Source: Thalassospira lucentensis MCCC 1A00383 = DSM 14000
GTDB taxonomy: Bacteria > Pseudomonadota > Alphaproteobacteria > Rhodospirillales > Thalassospiraceae
DNA: 64,000 bases
Direction: 5' to 3'
Assembly: GCF_000421265.1 (NCBI RefSeq)
Contig: NZ_ATWN01000003.1
Location: 124,001 to 188,000 of the forward strand
Below are positions 57,741-64,000 of this stretch, piece by piece; position 1 is the stretch's first letter, and each line of letters opens with the position of its first letter. Made by a program: the position numbers and the translations under genes. A model generated the notes under the pieces. It saw nothing but the letters and a program-made list of their open reading frames with translations. It ran no database searches and was not told the DNA's origin.

Positions 57741-59897
57741 TCAGAAATTGCCTTCGCGCAGTAGTACACCTGTGGCCTTTCTGAGAAACGCCCCGGCAAT
57801 GCTTTTGCCTTCCCCTTTAAGCTTGACGATTCCCCGTTCAATTCTATCTTTTGATGATTGAGCATCAATCACTTCAAAGACCACCCGATAAACACTCTCG
57901 ATGGGAACCAGCCTTTTATCTTGGTCCTGTTCCACAGCGACCTTCCCGCCATAGATTGACGCAAGAAACGGTGCTTCGAGATAAGAACTATTTACCGGAG
58001 AGACGACCTTTACCATAAGGCTCAGGGATGGTTGCGCGTAGTCGTCAGGATAAAATGTAGCTGACATACCGGCCTGGATTTCCTCAAGCCGGTCTTCGTT
58101 CACATAGCCAACAACCTGATCCATATGTTGATCAACGATCGTGATCAGTGGCTTTTCCTTGCTTACGCTCATTCCCGACCGCAAGTTTTCGTCTAACTCA
58201 ACCACCTTGCCCGCAAAACGGGCCCGAATGGTCATCTTTTGACGCTGCTCCTCATAAGAAACAAGCCTCGCCAAATCACTTTCCATATCCTGCCGGAGAA
58301 TATTGATCCTTGTGCGTTCTTGGCCCCCGGCTGCTTCACGTCGGATGAGTTCCTTGCGCATGGCGATACTCAACTTGGTTTTCTGGATGGAGAAATCCAA
58401 CTCTTCCGCCTTGAGTGTGAGTAGCTCATCACCGACCTTGACGATGTCTCCGCGCCGCACAGCCAAGCTTTGCAAGCTGGCCGCTTCCGGTGCAAACACA
58501 ACACTTCGTTCCCCGGCCTGAAGATATGCCGGCAAATTGATGTTGGTATTCCAAGGAAGGCATAACAAGGCAAGCACAGCCAAACTGCCGCACACAGAGG
58601 CCATCAGGCGGCGGTTCCATTGCATCTGAGATCGCCTTTTGACAATTTCGCAAAGCTCGCGCCAGATCGGCATCCCGATGAGCAATATGATCTCGGCAAC
58701 GAACAAAAAAATGCCGAGAACCTTGAAAAAGAAGCCGTAAACCAGAAGCGCAATACCAGCGAAAAGAATCAGACGATACAGCCAAACCGCAATAGCATAG
58801 GCAATCAGGAAAATCCCGAACTGCCTGCCGGCAGGCTCTGGAGGTGCTTCACCGAAACCAAACAGCGTTTCTCGCAACCACCATTTTGCGCGCGCAAAAG
58901 AACGATCCTGAAGGTTTTCGAAACCCAATGCATCCGACAAAAGGTAGTAACCATCAAATCGCATGAACGGATTAAGGTTAATCACAAGCGTAAGAACCCA
59001 AGTGACTGTTGCGACAAGGAACGCCGCACTCTTTGCAGGTCCTTCGGGCAAAAAACTCCACAGGAAAGTTGCTATTGAGGCCAGACAGAGCTCTGTCACG
59101 ATGCCCGCAGCACCAATACCAAAACGCTTCCGCCGCGAAACCAAACGCCACGCATCAGACGTATCGGTATACAGCACCGGCCACATCACCAGAAAAGCAA
59201 CCCCCATGGTTGGGACACGGCAGCCGGCACGTGTTGCCGCATAAGCATGCCCGAACTCATGAAGTATCTTCGTGAAAATTAACGCTAGACCGTACCAGAC
59301 AACACCTTCCCAACTAAAGAAGTGCAGGAAAGTTGCCGAGAAAGTATCCCACTGGCGCGTGACAAGAAATACCCCGACAATTCCCATCAGAATAATCAGC
59401 ACCCTGATGGTCCTCGAACACAACAAATCTGCAAAGCCGCACGTGGCATCGAGAAATTTTTGGGGTCGTATAAGGGGAACCCTGAAAAACAGATATTGAC
59501 CGAGCAGACGGCGGATAAATCGACCTTTCCCGGCACCTGCAATACGCGACAGGCCTTTTACCCCTTCAGCGGTTTGTTGACGCACCAGAAAATTGGTTCG
59601 CAAGAAATGCACAAGCCAATCAATGCTGGCGTCAGCAGGGCGCTTTCCTGTGGATTTTTCTACTGCTCTTGCAACCGCGTCCGGGGTTGCCAAATGCCAG
59701 AAAGAAAGCAGGTCATGCGCATCACTGGTGATGCGATGAAAGCGGTTACGGACAGGGTCATGAATTGTCCAGGTCGGTATGCCGGCCACATCGGTCGGCC
59801 CTTTCAGCAACTTCAGGTCATCACGTAGTTCTGGCAAACGCGTTTGCGTCGCTTCTGTCCTGCCCGTTGAGACTTCTTTTGCTGTTTCCTCTGCCAT
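57741..59897 (-). CDS. PqqD-like / M50 membrane metalloprotease / HlyD fusion protein
   Basis: 718 residues. N-terminal PqqD-like domain (about 25-110; WTIHDPVRNRFHRITSDAHD). Then a membrane domain with site-2-protease motifs: HEFGH at 213-217 inside a helix, and NPFMRFDG at 309-316 giving the third zinc ligand, so it is likely active. About eight helices follow to near 470, with a C-terminal HlyD/lipoyl-type adaptor (about 480-690) including a coiled-coil-like part. Proteins of this build are annotated in databases as peptide zinc metalloproteases. It is the last gene of an operon with two further adaptors and a TolC-type protein, six bases after the GAF-HlyD gene. It may process and hand over the secreted substrate. 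Confidence 0.85.
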   Translation of the reverse strand: MAEETAKEVSTGRTEATQTRLPELRDDLKLLKGPTDVAGIPTWTIHDPVRNRFHRITSDAHDLLSFWHLATPDAVARAVEKSTGKRPADASIDWLVHFLRTNFLVRQQTAEGVKGLSRIAGAGKGRFIRRLLGQYLFFRVPLIRPQKFLDATCGFADLLCSRTIRVLIILMGIVGVFLVTRQWDTFSATFLHFFSWEGVVWYGLALIFTKILHEFGHAYAATRAGCRVPTMGVAFLVMWPVLYTDTSDAWRLVSRRKRFGIGAAGIVTELCLASIATFLWSFLPEGPAKSAAFLVATVTWVLTLVINLNPFMRFDGYYLLSDALGFENLQDRSFARAKWWLRETLFGFGEAPPEPAGRQFGIFLIAYAIAVWLYRLILFAGIALLVYGFFFKVLGIFLFVAEIILLIGMPIWRELCEIVKRRSQMQWNRRLMASVCGSLAVLALLCLPWNTNINLPAYLQAGERSVVFAPEAASLQSLAVRRGDIVKVGDELLTLKAEELDFSIQKTKLSIAMRKELIRREAAGGQERTRINILRQDMESDLARLVSYEEQRQKMTIRARFAGKVVELDENLRSGMSVSKEKPLITIVDQHMDQVVGYVNEDRLEEIQAGMSATFYPDDYAQPSLSLMVKVVSPVNSSYLEAPFLASIYGGKVAVEQDQDKRLVPIESVYRVVFEVIDAQSSKDRIERGIVKLKGEGKSIAGAFLRKATGVLLREGNF

Positions 59898-59903
59898 CGT
59901 CGC

Positions 59904-61244
59904 TTACCAGCCAACAAATTGACGGAATGCCGAAATCGGGCGACGGAACAGAAAAAAGAAAAGCGATACATCATTCCCCGAAATACGTGCTGTTCCGCGC
60001 AACCCCAGTCTTGGCCGCTCGGTTCCGGAAAATGATGCCTTCATATAATAACTCAACACACCTGACGGCGTTGGTTCCGGGGTGTAGCTGCTATAACGCA
60101 GCTTGGCATCAATCGGATCCAATGGTGAATGATCAAGAAACAGCGTTACGTCAGCACCTGTTTCAAATACGGATGCATCTGCAACAGGCAGTTCTATCAG
60201 AAGTTCTGTATCAAGCGGATCGGCAATCTGCATGAGCGCCTGCCCCGTTTGAACCGGTGTTCCCTCAAGATCCGCCTTGTCCCGAAAGACGGCAACCCCG
60301 TCACGCGGCGAAACGAGCACTACTTTGTTCAGAATACGACGCGCGTAATCCCGCTCTGTTTTGCGCAGTGCCATCCGGCTGCGCAGAACGGCAAGCTCGC
60401 CCTTGACACGCGGATCGACAAAAGATGCCTGCTGAGCACTCATCAACTCGCTTTGCGCAACCAGGAGCTCCTCTTCGGCAACGGCCAGACGGCCTGTAAT
60501 TTCTGTGGCGTCATACCGCAAAAGAACCGTTTCTTCCTTCACCGGCTCATTGGGAGCAACAGAAACGGACTCAATCACACCATTCATTGGTGCTGTCACA
60601 ATTGCGGCTTCGCGTGCAACCACTTCCGCAGGCGCCAACACGGTTTGTTGCACCGGAAAAAACATTGCGGCGAACACAATGAAGGTTGCTGCGATCGCAA
60701 TCATTTTGGTTCGCGTCGCAGAAAAAGATGGCGACCAGGAGCGATCAAGGGCCGTCCAGGCATGGGCTGCCACTTCCCCGACCTTTTCAAGAAGAGCAAT
60801 CTCTTCCGAACGGAACTCCCCCTCGCGAGATATCCAGAGCCCTCCCATCAATTGGCCGGATGGTGCTATCAACGGCAGCCAGAAAGCAGGCTGCTGCCCC
60901 CATTCCTGATAGCCTCGCGGATCCTGGTCTTCGATATCTTGTAGCGGCAACCAACCAGATGAGCTGCCCGCGCCCGTCCCCAAAAAATGACCAAGCACAT
61001 CTGCTTGCCACCGGATATATGGCGCGTTGGTGTCAATGCTTGCAACATCAGAAGCCTGCAAAGGTTTGGCCACCGACTTTCGAACACCAAACAAGGTCGC
61101 CGAGTCAAAAGGAACAAGCCCGCGCAGTTGGTTGACCAAAACAAACGCAAGATCAGAAAGGTTTCTGGCGTGCCTAACCTCTTTCTCAAACTGAAAAAGA
61201 CGCAAAAGGGCTGTTTTGTTCGCTGGTGTCGCTTTTGGTGTCAT
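59904..61244 (-). CDS. GAF domain-HlyD membrane-fusion protein
   Basis: 446 residues. Cytoplasmic GAF-like domain (about 15-170; FDSATLFGV, WLPLIAPSGQLMGGLWIS), one membrane helix (about 182-200), then a periplasmic lipoyl/HlyD adaptor (VTAPMNGVIESVSVAPNEPVKEETVLLRYD in parts, a coiled coil near 255-320, and VVLVSPRDGVAVFRD). A GAF domain on an adaptor is uncommon and suggests cytoplasmic ligand control or a scaffold. The ATG follows directly on the stop of the upstream adaptor gene. Confidence 0.85.
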   Translation of the reverse strand: MTPKATPANKTALLRLFQFEKEVRHARNLSDLAFVLVNQLRGLVPFDSATLFGVRKSVAKPLQASDVASIDTNAPYIRWQADVLGHFLGTGAGSSSGWLPLQDIEDQDPRGYQEWGQQPAFWLPLIAPSGQLMGGLWISREGEFRSEEIALLEKVGEVAAHAWTALDRSWSPSFSATRTKMIAIAATFIVFAAMFFPVQQTVLAPAEVVAREAAIVTAPMNGVIESVSVAPNEPVKEETVLLRYDATEITGRLAVAEEELLVAQSELMSAQQASFVDPRVKGELAVLRSRMALRKTERDYARRILNKVVLVSPRDGVAVFRDKADLEGTPVQTGQALMQIADPLDTELLIELPVADASVFETGADVTLFLDHSPLDPIDAKLRYSSYTPEPTPSGVLSYYMKASFSGTERPRLGLRGTARISGNDVSLFFFLFRRPISAFRQFVGW

Positions 61245-62018
61245 CTACGGGTTCAACGGGGTCGAAAATTGCGCAGTTCCGCTCATGCCTGCGATCAGGT
61301 TCGATGTATCGGAATTTTCCGCAAAACGCGCATAGACATTGACGGTCTGGCTTATCGGATCAATTTGCGCCCCCAGTCTAAGAATCTCGGCTTCGAGAGT
61401 CTTGCCCGTTTCATCGACAATCACATTGAACGCGCGCCCGGTTTTCAGCCAGGATAACCAACCAGACGGGATAACCAATTCGAGTTCCAGGACGCTGTCA
61501 TCAAGTATTGAGATAAGCGGATCACCCGGTGCGACCGTCTCGTGGGGCTGGACATCGCGCCGGATCACACGCCCCTGATATGGGGCCGTAATTTGACATT
61601 GGCTTGCCACATACCCGGCTGCTGTCAACTCTGCTTGTGCTTTGGCGACGGCTGCTTCACTTAAAGCAACTTCCAGTGCGCCAGCAGACTGAAGCTTCAA
61701 AAGCTTTTTCTTGTTTTCAAGCAACTTGCGCTCGCCAACAAGGGTCGCTTTTGCAATATCCTGATGCGCACGCATCAACCGACAGTCAAAACCGACAAGC
61801 AAATCCCCCTTGTCAAACCTCTGCCCTTCGACAAACGGAATGTCCGTAACCCGCCCGGAAATTTGACTGGAAAGAACCGCACTGCTTGACGCTTTCAACA
61901 AGGCACGGACCGATTGCTGTTCTTGCGCATCAGAGACAGAAACAAAGGCCCAAAGCCCGATCATTACGATCAGGCTCCGGGCAAAAAATCTTGGTATGGT
62001 CACTATAACTGGCAACAT
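61245..62018 (-). CDS. HlyD-family periplasmic adaptor
   Basis: 257 residues from the ATG at 62018, which follows the TolC-type stop (TGAAATG). A longer frame to 62123 would overlap that gene by 100 bases and lacks a signal. N-terminal signal or anchor (LIVMIGLWAFVSVSDA), lipoyl half motifs SSQISGRVTDIPFVEGQRFDKGDLL (in parts), a hairpin region, ITAPYQGRVIRRDVQPHE, and a beta-barrel. Shorter than RND adaptors. Probably links the inner-membrane parts to the outer-membrane channel. Confidence 0.85.
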   Translation of the reverse strand: MLPVIVTIPRFFARSLIVMIGLWAFVSVSDAQEQQSVRALLKASSSAVLSSQISGRVTDIPFVEGQRFDKGDLLVGFDCRLMRAHQDIAKATLVGERKLLENKKKLLKLQSAGALEVALSEAAVAKAQAELTAAGYVASQCQITAPYQGRVIRRDVQPHETVAPGDPLISILDDSVLELELVIPSGWLSWLKTGRAFNVIVDETGKTLEAEILRLGAQIDPISQTVNVYARFAENSDTSNLIAGMSGTAQFSTPLNP

Positions 62019-62019
62019 T

Positions 62020-63690
62020 TCAGGAGGTAAACCAGGAAACCAACTTCTTAATGGGATCCTGATCTTTCTCTTCAGTTTCCTGTTCGCGGGTGGTTGTTTC
62101 AATTTGCTGACGAATTTCATCATCGTCTGGCATCTTGATATCGCCCGTAAACCACTGTGACGTCACGTTCTGAATCTCGGCTGCGAGCGTTTTGATATCC
62201 TTGCCGGAAACTTTATCTGGCAACGGGTCCCCCCCCAAAGAAAGATAAAGCCGCCCAACCGAATTGCGCATTTGGGCAAAGGCCAGATCCCGGCGCAGCT
62301 CCGAAAGCAGATACTGCAGGTCCGCACGAATGGCTTCGCGCTGGCCGGCACTGCCCGTGCTGACATTGGCATCGATTTGACCTTTGATACCTTCTTCTAC
62401 GTTATAGAGCTCGGATACCGTTTGAAACTCGTCAATTGATTGGGTGTAACCGGCAAGCGCAATGTGCACCTGGCTCATCACCGCCATGCTCATCGCGTAA
62501 CGGCGATAGTCGACGACATCAAGGCGTCCCTCTGCCTGCTCGATACGTTTTGGCCCTGTAAAGACCTCGAAGAGGTTCTTGTTGATCGAAGCCCCCCAGG
62601 AGAACCAGGTCTGTTCCCACGCGTAGGAGTTACTGTCGTAGTTCCAGGCTGTATCAAGTTCCAGTCCGGGCAGCATTTCAAGATATGCACGACGGACATC
62701 CTTGTGGCTGATGCGCTGCTGATAGGCTTCTTCATGCAGTTCCGGACGGTGCAAAAGAGCGATACGTTCCAGCTTGTCGACGTCACCGATCCTGATGTCG
62801 GGCACCTGAAAATCAACAGGCCCCGGATCCAGAGTGTATTTGGTACCCGGTTCCAAATTCATCAGGGTCGCAAGCTGGGTCTTTGCAGCATTCAGTTCCC
62901 GACGCAAGACCTTAAGCTGACGTAACGTATCAAGCAGTTCTTTTTGATACCGTAGCGCACTTAGCGGCGCTTCACTTCCCGATGCCTGCGCTTCGCGTAC
63001 ATCTTCAAGGGCCTTTTCTACCGTAGCCGATAGCGGTGCAATCCTTTCCAGCAAACGTTCCGCTGAAACAGCATTCCAGAAAGCGGCACGCACATCCTGG
63101 GTGATATTATGAACGACTTTGCGGCGGCGCTCTTCGGCGATTAATACGCGGTCGGCGACTTGCTGCGCACGAACATAGCTCAAGCCGAAGTCCAGAATGT
63201 TCCATGTAACGCCAATACTGGCGGTATTTATATCCCGGTCGCTAGACGTCGAATTTTCAAGTGATTGGGATCCGGTCGTCAGCGACTTGCTGCTCGAACC
63301 ATTGAAATTGTCGCGCCCATCATACCCTGCCTCGGCAGACAACGTTGGCAAAAGATCAAGATTGGCCACAGTCAGGTTGTTGCTGGCAAGCGCACTTTCC
63401 ATCAGCTTGAGACGCTGATCAAGATTGTATTTAAGGGCGCGGGCCGTTGCCTCATACACAGTAATTGGCGCCGTCACCTTTTCCTGATCAGCAAACAACG
63501 CCTTGCGATCGGTCTCAACACGATTGAGGTGATCTGCCATTGTCATTGTTTCCGGAACAACCGCACAGGCCCCAAGCAACAACATACTGCTGGCTGCCAT
63601 CATTCTTGGCAGCGCCGAACTGCCAGTTTCACGACGTTTAACTGTATCCAAAGACAAAAAAGTCTCCCCCGTATTTGTCTTTTTAATCAT
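62020..63690 (-). CDS. TolC-family outer-membrane efflux lipoprotein
   Basis: 556 residues. Lipobox LLLGAC near 37-42 gives a lipidated N-terminal Cys; the N-terminus before it is long and the true start may be a later Met. Two OEP repeats with long coiled coils (ATARALKYNLDQRLKLMESALASNNLTVANLDLLPTLSAEAGYDG in parts; LLHRPELHEEAYQQRISHKDVRRAYLEMLPGLELD in parts) are characteristic. The charged C-terminal tail (TTREQETEEKDQDPIKKLVSW) is unusual. Outer-membrane exit duct of the adjacent adaptor set. Confidence 0.9.
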   Translation of the reverse strand: MIKKTNTGETFLSLDTVKRRETGSSALPRMMAASSMLLLGACAVVPETMTMADHLNRVETDRKALFADQEKVTAPITVYEATARALKYNLDQRLKLMESALASNNLTVANLDLLPTLSAEAGYDGRDNFNGSSSKSLTTGSQSLENSTSSDRDINTASIGVTWNILDFGLSYVRAQQVADRVLIAEERRRKVVHNITQDVRAAFWNAVSAERLLERIAPLSATVEKALEDVREAQASGSEAPLSALRYQKELLDTLRQLKVLRRELNAAKTQLATLMNLEPGTKYTLDPGPVDFQVPDIRIGDVDKLERIALLHRPELHEEAYQQRISHKDVRRAYLEMLPGLELDTAWNYDSNSYAWEQTWFSWGASINKNLFEVFTGPKRIEQAEGRLDVVDYRRYAMSMAVMSQVHIALAGYTQSIDEFQTVSELYNVEEGIKGQIDANVSTGSAGQREAIRADLQYLLSELRRDLAFAQMRNSVGRLYLSLGGDPLPDKVSGKDIKTLAAEIQNVTSQWFTGDIKMPDDDEIRQQIETTTREQETEEKDQDPIKKLVSWFTS

Positions 63691-63693
63691 CTC

Positions 63694-64000
63694 TTATGCT
63701 TCGTCCAATAATGCGTCCAAAAGAGCTGTTTCCCGCATGCCGACAGAAGATGCCAACTCAGCAGAGAAGCCACTGGCTCTTGGTGAATAATCGTTAAAGG
63801 TCAAGAGATCACCGTCTTCGGAAGGTTGCCCGTCGTTTCCGCCCAGGAACGAATTGGCAAGGCCACTCAGTCCACCACCGGCATCACCAAGAAGGCCCGA
63901 AAGACCACCGGAACTTCCACCATCAGCAATACTGCCAAGGCTCCCCGATGACCCGCCAGCAAAGCCACCCGAACCAGTTGAGCCCCCCACACTACCACCA
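63694..64000 (-). CDS. Gly/Ser-rich protein, C-terminal part (5' end outside window)
   Basis: At least 102 residues are open to the right edge; an apparent GTG start at 63990 is not needed because the frame continues upstream. The N-terminal part is dominated by Gly and Ser (GGSxGS, GGLSGLLGDAGGG), the end is non-repetitive and acidic (LLTFNDYSPRASGF, ALLDALLDEA). Such composition occurs at the ends of large secreted or surface proteins. It ends three bases before the TolC-type gene and is the likely first gene and cargo of this operon. Confidence 0.7.
   Translation of the reverse strand, partial: GGSVGGSTGSGGFAGGSSGSLGSIADGGSSGGLSGLLGDAGGGLSGLANSFLGGNDGQPSEDGDLLTFNDYSPRASGFSAELASSVGMRETALLDALLDEA

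Follow-up and report, generated by a model that had tools for sequence, protein, structure and literature searches.

We analysed a 64,000-nucleotide stretch of the genome of Thalassospira lucentensis MCCC 1A00383 = DSM 14000 (contig NZ_ATWN01000003.1, positions 124,001 to 188,000; G000:C3:124001-188000 in our numbering), called the window below. At its right end lies an operon whose last gene encodes a fusion of a PqqD-like domain, an M50 protease and a HlyD-type adaptor (M50H). Five reading frames, all on the minus strand, were recovered by an open reading frame (ORF) check at the positions of the initial annotation, and together with the Pfam matches they confirmed the composition described there. 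From head to tail, the genes encode a large protein expected to be the cargo of the system, a TolC-type protein, a HlyD adaptor, a GAF-HlyD adaptor and the fusion (Table 1). The cargo and TolC-type genes are separated by 3 nucleotides, the HlyD and GAF-HlyD genes by 0, and the GAF-HlyD and fusion genes by 6. The TolC-type and HlyD frames overlap by 104 nucleotides when the longest frames are taken; the HlyD start probably lies later, because many HlyD homologues have about 255-270 residues. The Gly/Ser-rich protein noted at the edge of the window is present, but it is the tail of a 2096-residue cargo and not a small protein. A type I ATP-binding cassette (ABC) exporter gene right of the window in the same operon had been named in advance as the finding that would overturn the proposed export function. 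When the right flank of the window was read, no ABC gene was found in the operon or directly right of the cargo gene, and the next genes are divergent.

Table 1 Features of the operon. Positions are those of the window.
Feature	Position	Strand	Basis
PqqD-like/M50/HlyD fusion (M50H), 718 residues	57741..59897	-	Pfam; alignment of relatives; AlphaFold2 model
Predicted PqqD-like domain (of the type of ribosomally synthesized and post-translationally modified peptide (RiPP) recognition elements), fusion residues 18-115	59553..59846	-	hhalign and model
M50 (site-2 protease) core, fusion residues 204-320; HEFGH 213-217, NPFMRFDG 309-316	58938..59288	-	PF02163, 33.7 bits
HlyD/adaptor part, fusion residues 451-698	57804..58547	-	PF16576, PF13437; Foldseek
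GAF-HlyD adaptor, 446 residues	59904..61244	-	PF13437, PF16576; GAF below cut-off; recurring neighbour
HlyD/RND-type adaptor, at most 292 residues	61245..62123	-	PF13437, 69.4 bits; TIGR01730, 108.3 bits
TolC-type outer-membrane protein, 556 residues	62020..63690	-	PF02321 (OEP), E 2.3e-34
C-terminal end of the cargo gene	63694..64000	-	gene runs on right of the window to 69984 (L004:9695-15985), 2096 residues
Conserved C-terminal tail of alphaproteobacterial cargos, F[ST]xQ[LV]A ... LLxAL	63697..63828	-	tail profile

The fusion protein was examined by profile searches and structure prediction. It matched the Pfam M50 family above the cut-off of 27.2 bits, and also HlyD_D23 and HlyD_3. The Pfam match, the alignment and the helices in the model place the HExxH and NPxxxxDG zinc site of M50 proteases in transmembrane helices. 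The protease looks functional because its zinc-site residues (H213, E214, H217, D315 and G316) are invariant in 52 of 52 aligned fusions. An AlphaFold2 model (mean predicted local distance difference test score (pLDDT) 86.1, predicted template modelling score (pTM) 0.65) begins with three strands and then three helices, followed by a helical membrane part and an adaptor part; the latter resembled Spr0693, EmrA, MacA and MexA in Foldseek. When a PqqD profile built from up to 29 fetched PqqD fragments was compared with the fusion by hhalign, residues 18-115 gave a probability of 85.6% (E 5.6e-6) and six other segments at most 1.6%, which supports the view that the N-terminal part is a PqqD-like domain. 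Pfam PF05402 (PqqD) matched 1 of the 52 fusion members, at E 0.089, and PqqD was not among the matches listed in the solved-structure and Foldseek comparisons, whose rows were adaptors and biotin-type domains. Furthermore, the NCBI daptide metalloprotease model NF041824 aligned with residues 51-407 (149.1 bits, E 1.8e-43), short of its cut-off of 300.

To the right, the cargo gene encodes a basic N-terminus, the motif LEQRFMFDA at residue 44, a linker, a DUF4347 domain, repeats about 125 residues apart and a Gly-rich tail. The motif LExRxxxDA was common to the N-termini of the cargos. We read 78 DUF4347 fragments, some of which are one place fetched twice, and 67 of them matched the pattern LExRxxxD(A/G) at 21-92 residues upstream of the domain. 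Of the remaining 11, four (three places) carried LEPRILLSAD, LEPRIMLSAD or LEPRILFSSD and seven (six places) had no leader. L1, E2, R4 and D8 were constant in 59 distinct leaders; as the search pattern fixes D8 and limits positions 1, 2 and 4 to [LMIVF], [ED] and [RK], only the constancy within these sets is informative. The best 15-residue hydropathy (KD15) exceeded 1.8 in 2 of 62 leaders, as compared with 49 of 51 TolC-type and 55 of 61 HlyD proteins of the operons, and so the leader region is, by its composition, too hydrophilic for a typical Sec signal. The leader was also present in operon-linked cargos that lack a recognised DUF4347. In Micavibrio (L075), two cargos beside the operon carry LEKRLMLDA and give no DUF4347 match; over 1.58 Mb of this genome, the motif was near the start of no further frame of 250 residues or more. 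In G434 (L209), an 836-residue protein encoded between TolC and the fusion has the leader from residue 4, likewise with no recognised DUF4347. Among 126 unassigned ORFs around fusions, none carried the motif.

The leader is related to LEPR-XLL, the N-terminal motif described by the NCBI model NF012209 (LEPR-8K; curated cut-off 17). This model left the window cargo, which has the FDAA form, unreported at E up to 1. It gave 14.3 bits to a Nitrospira cargo (L063), and 27-28 bits to the S-type cargos, defined below, of Neptunomonas and G041 (L098, L115, L142). LEPR-XLL-bearing frames of 10327, 12249 and 13848 residues were seen in G387:C1 and G429:C1.

DUF4347 (PF14252) of the window cargo spans residues 87-250 with 159.2 bits (gathering cut-off 24.6), and the single cysteine of the protein falls in the YGC motif of this domain. 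DUF4347 proteins were present in 46 of 50 genomes holding fusion loci and in 0 of 14 control genomes. The domain was called uncharacterized in PA0256 by an mBio article of 2021 (PMC8262886). A model of the Nitrospira (L063) domain from six sequences had a core pLDDT of mostly 83-96, and its best match was Tce1, a Pseudomonas type VI effector (9qpe_G; Z 12.8, root-mean-square deviation 2.7, 140 aligned residues). CHAT-type rows followed at Z 6-8.6 and caspases at Z 6-7.1, unrelated rows reaching similar Z. A caspase-like fold is predicted for the domain. Of six aligned rows, four have HxISHG and all six have YGC; because the His is lost in L072 and L078, a protease activity would not be general. 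A weaker DUF4347 class in Azospirillum-type genomes (L152, L153, L154) starts near the domain and has no leader. DUF4347 was also considered as the primary export signal and rejected: of the 26 genomes in the window's class where it exceeds the cut-off, 13 lack the fusion (three of these 13 matches being weak, 26-30 bits), and it was unrecognised in the operon-linked cargos of Micavibrio and G434, in which the leader is kept.

We then looked at how regularly these genes occur together. A scan of GTDB genomes gave 495 relatives of the fusion, of which the best 80 were kept. Among the 67 with more than 4 kb upstream, GAF-HlyD was found in 63, HlyD in 58, TolC in 57 and all three in 51, some of the misses stemming from simple ORF choice. 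The partner genes recur beside the fusion in several phyla, and the expectation that the fusion regularly has TolC/HlyD neighbours thus held. In the GAF-HlyD protein of the window, the GAF domain scores below the Pfam cut-off. Many loci have a giant repetitive ORF immediately upstream of TolC, often of 1500-2100 residues and truncated where the locus ends; its place in Nitrospira is downstream of the fusion. ABC-like ORFs, judged by Walker A and LSGG patterns, occurred in 7 of the 80 loci, and none was a type I exporter by reading; they read as importer ATPases, an SMC/AAA-like protein and a MacB two genes downstream. An ABC ORF right after the fusion in G434 was tried as an exporter and set aside, as it reads as a soluble ABC-F protein. 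A SPOR domain was found in the adaptor that follows an S-type fusion at L203:6928-8577 (G043:C25).

Subsequently, the linkage of leader and fusion was examined in three surveys, with co-occurrence statistics uncorrected for relatedness and with limits (E<0.01, E<0.005 and those for M50H) chosen after the lists were seen. Among 289 genomes of the window's class, the fusion was found in 17, fragments and a broken copy (G304) included, with a score gap of at least 233 bits versus at most 99. A leader profile matched 14 of the 289 genomes at E<0.01, all 14 among the 17 with the fusion (Fisher p 2.9e-21); the next match had E 0.017. This profile was made from 37 leaders of locus-bearing genomes and the window's own, so that the survey may include those genomes or close relatives of them, yet leaders of Micavibrio outside the training set were also matched (G320, E 0.0015). 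DUF4347 was over its cut-off in 26 genomes of the class, 13 with the fusion and 13 without (Fisher p 1.7e-12), and in the 13 fusion-less genomes the leader profile had no match at E<0.01.

The other two surveys used NF012209, which NCBI built independently of this analysis. In the gammaproteobacterial class, that of Neptunomonas G043 (184 genomes), 26 genomes have the fusion. They include 15 of the 17 genomes that the model matched at E<0.005 (p 2.3e-13) and 18 of the 27 matched when the curated cut-off was applied (p 1.2e-12). The two fusion-less exceptions are G404, a fragmented assembly with the match on a 3.1-kb contig, and G441, with the match in a 99-residue frame. Of the 14 control genomes, one was over the cut-off at E up to 1 and none matched at E up to 0.01. 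In the phylum of Candidatus Scalindua (118 genomes, E<=0.01), 11 of 12 matched genomes were among the 30 with the fusion. The leader, or LEPR-XLL, was thus linked to the fusion in all three surveys, and DUF4347 tracks the fusion less well.

Furthermore, leader and fusion co-varied. The leaders are of a D-type or an S-type, which differ in one residue. In a tree of 42 fusions, the 30 with D-type leaders lay on one side of a 100/100 branch and the 6 with S-type leaders on the other, the placement of L209 and L204 (long branches) and L211 (partial) being less sure. Fourteen of the 30 D labels come from the operon's own locus or contig; for the other 16, a DUF4347 gene in the same genome supplied the label. 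The S side also holds six SecA-associated fusions with no adjacent cargo. When leader types were shuffled on the tree, 0 of 500 shuffles were as low for D. The tree excludes L189/G419 (S-type, fusion in fragments), L215/G304 (D-type, fusion broken) and L069/G041. Of the three fusions in one Neptunomonas genome, the D-type fusion shares a contig with its D-type cargo, and the two S-type fusions each lie beside an S-type cargo of their own. Thus, one leader residue (D/S) co-varies with the fusion tree over the 36 fusions compared. Because a shared N-terminal motif tracks and co-varies with the fusion, recognition of the cargo by the PqqD-like part gains indirect support.

These data bear on the possibility that the operon is a regulated-proteolysis or small-molecule efflux unit, and that the giant neighbour and its motif are linked to it otherwise, for example by surface anchoring. 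Sensing of small molecules is common among GAF domains, and signalling roles are common among M50 proteases. However, the linkage of leader and fusion in three surveys, and their co-variation, speak against such a unit. Moreover, in G304 (L215) the fusion is in three frames, TolC in two and HlyD a remnant, and the cargo has 816 residues, with GAF-HlyD remaining an open frame; decay has affected most parts of the system jointly. We regard a proteolysis or efflux unit as very improbable.

No ATPase gene is part of the window's operon, and a candidate energy source appeared in sister operons. A SecA-like gene of about 660-730 residues abuts the fusion gene in 13 of 35 distinct loci of the lower score class, some of the 35 being fragments and the compared flanks being unequal. 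Nine of the 13 genomes are gammaproteobacterial and four belong to the phylum of Scalindua; loci of this kind include L253, L256, L257, L259, L266, L270, L213 and L212. SecA_DEAD, SecA_PP_bind and P-loop_SecA were found in 6 of 6 scanned SecA-like proteins, and no SecA_SW match was reported. In five loci measured, the gene starts between 55 nucleotides before and 28 nucleotides after the end of the fusion gene. Seven of the 13 loci were placed in the fusion tree, all on the S side. SecA-type energy is thus genetically linked to the fusion in part of the sister branch. Given this abutting gene in a number of sister operons, SecA-type energy would be a first guess for the window's branch also, there via the housekeeping SecA.

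Taken together, we consider it probable that the operon encodes an apparatus that exports giant proteins, destined for the surface or for secretion, under the direction of a leader and with no ABC transporter. The cargo would bear the N-terminal leader LExRxxxDA, a non-Sec signal, which the PqqD-like domain of the fusion would bind in the cytoplasm and the M50 domain would cut at the membrane. The chain would then pass through a conduit formed by the HlyD part of the fusion, the two HlyD adaptors and the TolC-type protein, and DUF4347 behind the leader would probably be a protease that acts later on the cargo. Binding, the direction of transport and secretion are what we infer here, as is cleavage, which is assumed from the intact motifs only. 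The initial annotation had proposed recognition, cleavage and export along such a path; its composition, its lack of an ABC gene and its TolC/HlyD neighbours stand, and the size of the cargo has changed. A more specific and more tentative version is a one-step secretion class that works with no ABC transporter. Here, the fusion may read a LEPR-XLL/FDAA leader, SecA-type ATPases (dedicated in some sister operons, housekeeping elsewhere) may drive the chain, and exit may occur via three adaptors and TolC.

Several observations weigh against the export reading. Three of the 17 fusion genomes of the window's class (G143, G177, G327) had no leader match at E<0.01, and six DUF4347 places in fusion genomes have no leader. 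LEPR-XLL occurred without the fusion in 2 of 17 and 1 of 12 genomes, and in 9 of 27 gammaproteobacterial genomes at the curated cut-off. Conversely, 11 of 26 gammaproteobacterial fusion genomes and 19 of 30 in the phylum of Scalindua had no LEPR-XLL match at the limits used, some of them carrying a D-type leader beside the operon (L264, L209, L211, L218, L271). G041 has an LFSS-type leader (L142) and its known fusion, L069, falls in the high score class; being outside the tree, it is possibly contrary to the co-variation. Cargo and machine genes lie apart in several sister loci. PMC10868602 describes an LEPR-XLL protein with RTX and serralysin domains at its end, an arrangement in keeping with type I secretion. 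A SecA-like gene was found in 0 of 89 distinct loci of the window's score class, the flanks compared being unequal, and a search for a second SecA in an operon-bearing Micavibrio genome gave only one SecA in the 74% at hand (1.58 of 2.14 Mb). Finally, in the genome of the window an ABC exporter at C2 passes the PrtD cut-off with 516.9 bits, and further high scores lie at C1 and C15.

The last point is what would be expected if an unlinked ABC exporter exported the cargo in trans, C-terminus first, and the fusion held and later cut its N-terminus. Retention and release of this kind is known from adhesins of the LapA/LapG type. ABC exporters over the PrtD cut-off were found in 11 of 27 fusion genomes examined, the window's included, and also in G274, a fusion-less genome of the same genus. 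The C-terminal ends of alphaproteobacterial cargos (L004, L008, L010, L012, L021, L030 and others) are conserved, which would be expected of type I substrates, and a Gly/Gln-rich linker often precedes them. A profile of 14 such tails also matched a dozen additional operon-linked cargos at their very C-terminus; these were mostly closely related to sequences used for training. However, this profile had no match in the Nitrospira cargos L041 and L063. The best type I ABC score was only 213-250 bits in six fusion genomes (G108, G143, G387, G434, G508, G522; completeness of the last four unstated), a range also filled by further ABC proteins of other genomes, and the operon has its own adaptors and TolC-type protein. 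We therefore consider type I secretion in trans to be rather unlikely.

The single SecA of Micavibrio and the SecA relative beside the fusion in some sister operons would also suit a cargo that crosses by SecYEG and housekeeping SecA with an atypical signal, the fusion being only a leader peptidase and the rest an outer-membrane duct. Against this, nearly all leader regions lack a hydrophobic core, a leader that starts at residue 4 leaves no room in front for one, and the fusion carries an HlyD part of its own. We judge the SecYEG route unlikely.

Returning to the ABC-less export apparatus, the system would work like leader-dependent, TolC-dependent export. It shares with type I secretion (HlyB/HlyD/TolC) the HlyD-type adaptors, the TolC-type protein and a very large repetitive cargo in one operon; the conserved tail of alphaproteobacterial cargos may or may not act as the uncleaved C-terminal signal of type I substrates does. 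It differs in the absence from the operon of an ABC exporter, which is defining for type I secretion, and in having three adaptor proteins, an N-terminal leader and an intramembrane protease fused to an adaptor. In peptidase-containing ABC transporters (PCAT; also ABC transporter maturation and secretion proteins, AMS), a C39 peptidase that cleaves the leader is likewise part of the inner-membrane component that hands over the cargo, as described in PMC8277102. Here, an M50 metalloprotease takes the place of the C39 cysteine peptidase, there is no ATPase, and the cargo is giant instead of a small peptide. The daptide HExxH intramembrane metalloprotease and other RiPP leader systems are similar in that NF041824 aligns with the fusion; the differences are that the family cut-off is not reached, that an HlyD adaptor is fused, and that the cargos are not peptides but have several hundred to more than 10000 residues. 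LEPR-XLL is also a short N-terminal motif of giant repetitive proteins, but the window cargo has the FDAA form, and the NCBI model states no function. The SecA-like proteins share three domains with SecA, but are of only about 660-730 residues and show no reported SecA_SW match, and their gene was not found in the window or in the 89 loci of its score class. No description of such a system was found in searches of the open-access literature, as judged by titles and the starts of abstracts.

Divergent from the cargo gene and upstream of it are genes for a DUF6916 protein, a phage-collar protein and a 2OG-Fe(II) oxygenase (L004:16514-18812; window-equivalent 70513-72811), and these kinds of gene also lie near the fusion in L009. 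L005, in the right flank, holds an ABC ORF that reads as a sugar-importer ATPase.

If the proposed reading is correct, secretion of giant proteins through TolC would take place with leader recognition and an intramembrane protease in place of the expected ABC pump. A function would thereby be found for LEPR-XLL, a named but unexplained domain of very large bacterial proteins, and proteins exported by this route would be predictable from sequence alone. The SecA-like gene of the sister operons makes the question of the energy source directly testable. Should the one-step, SecA-driven class be real, it would be an export route for many giant repetitive proteins of Proteobacteria, Nitrospirota and Planctomycetota.

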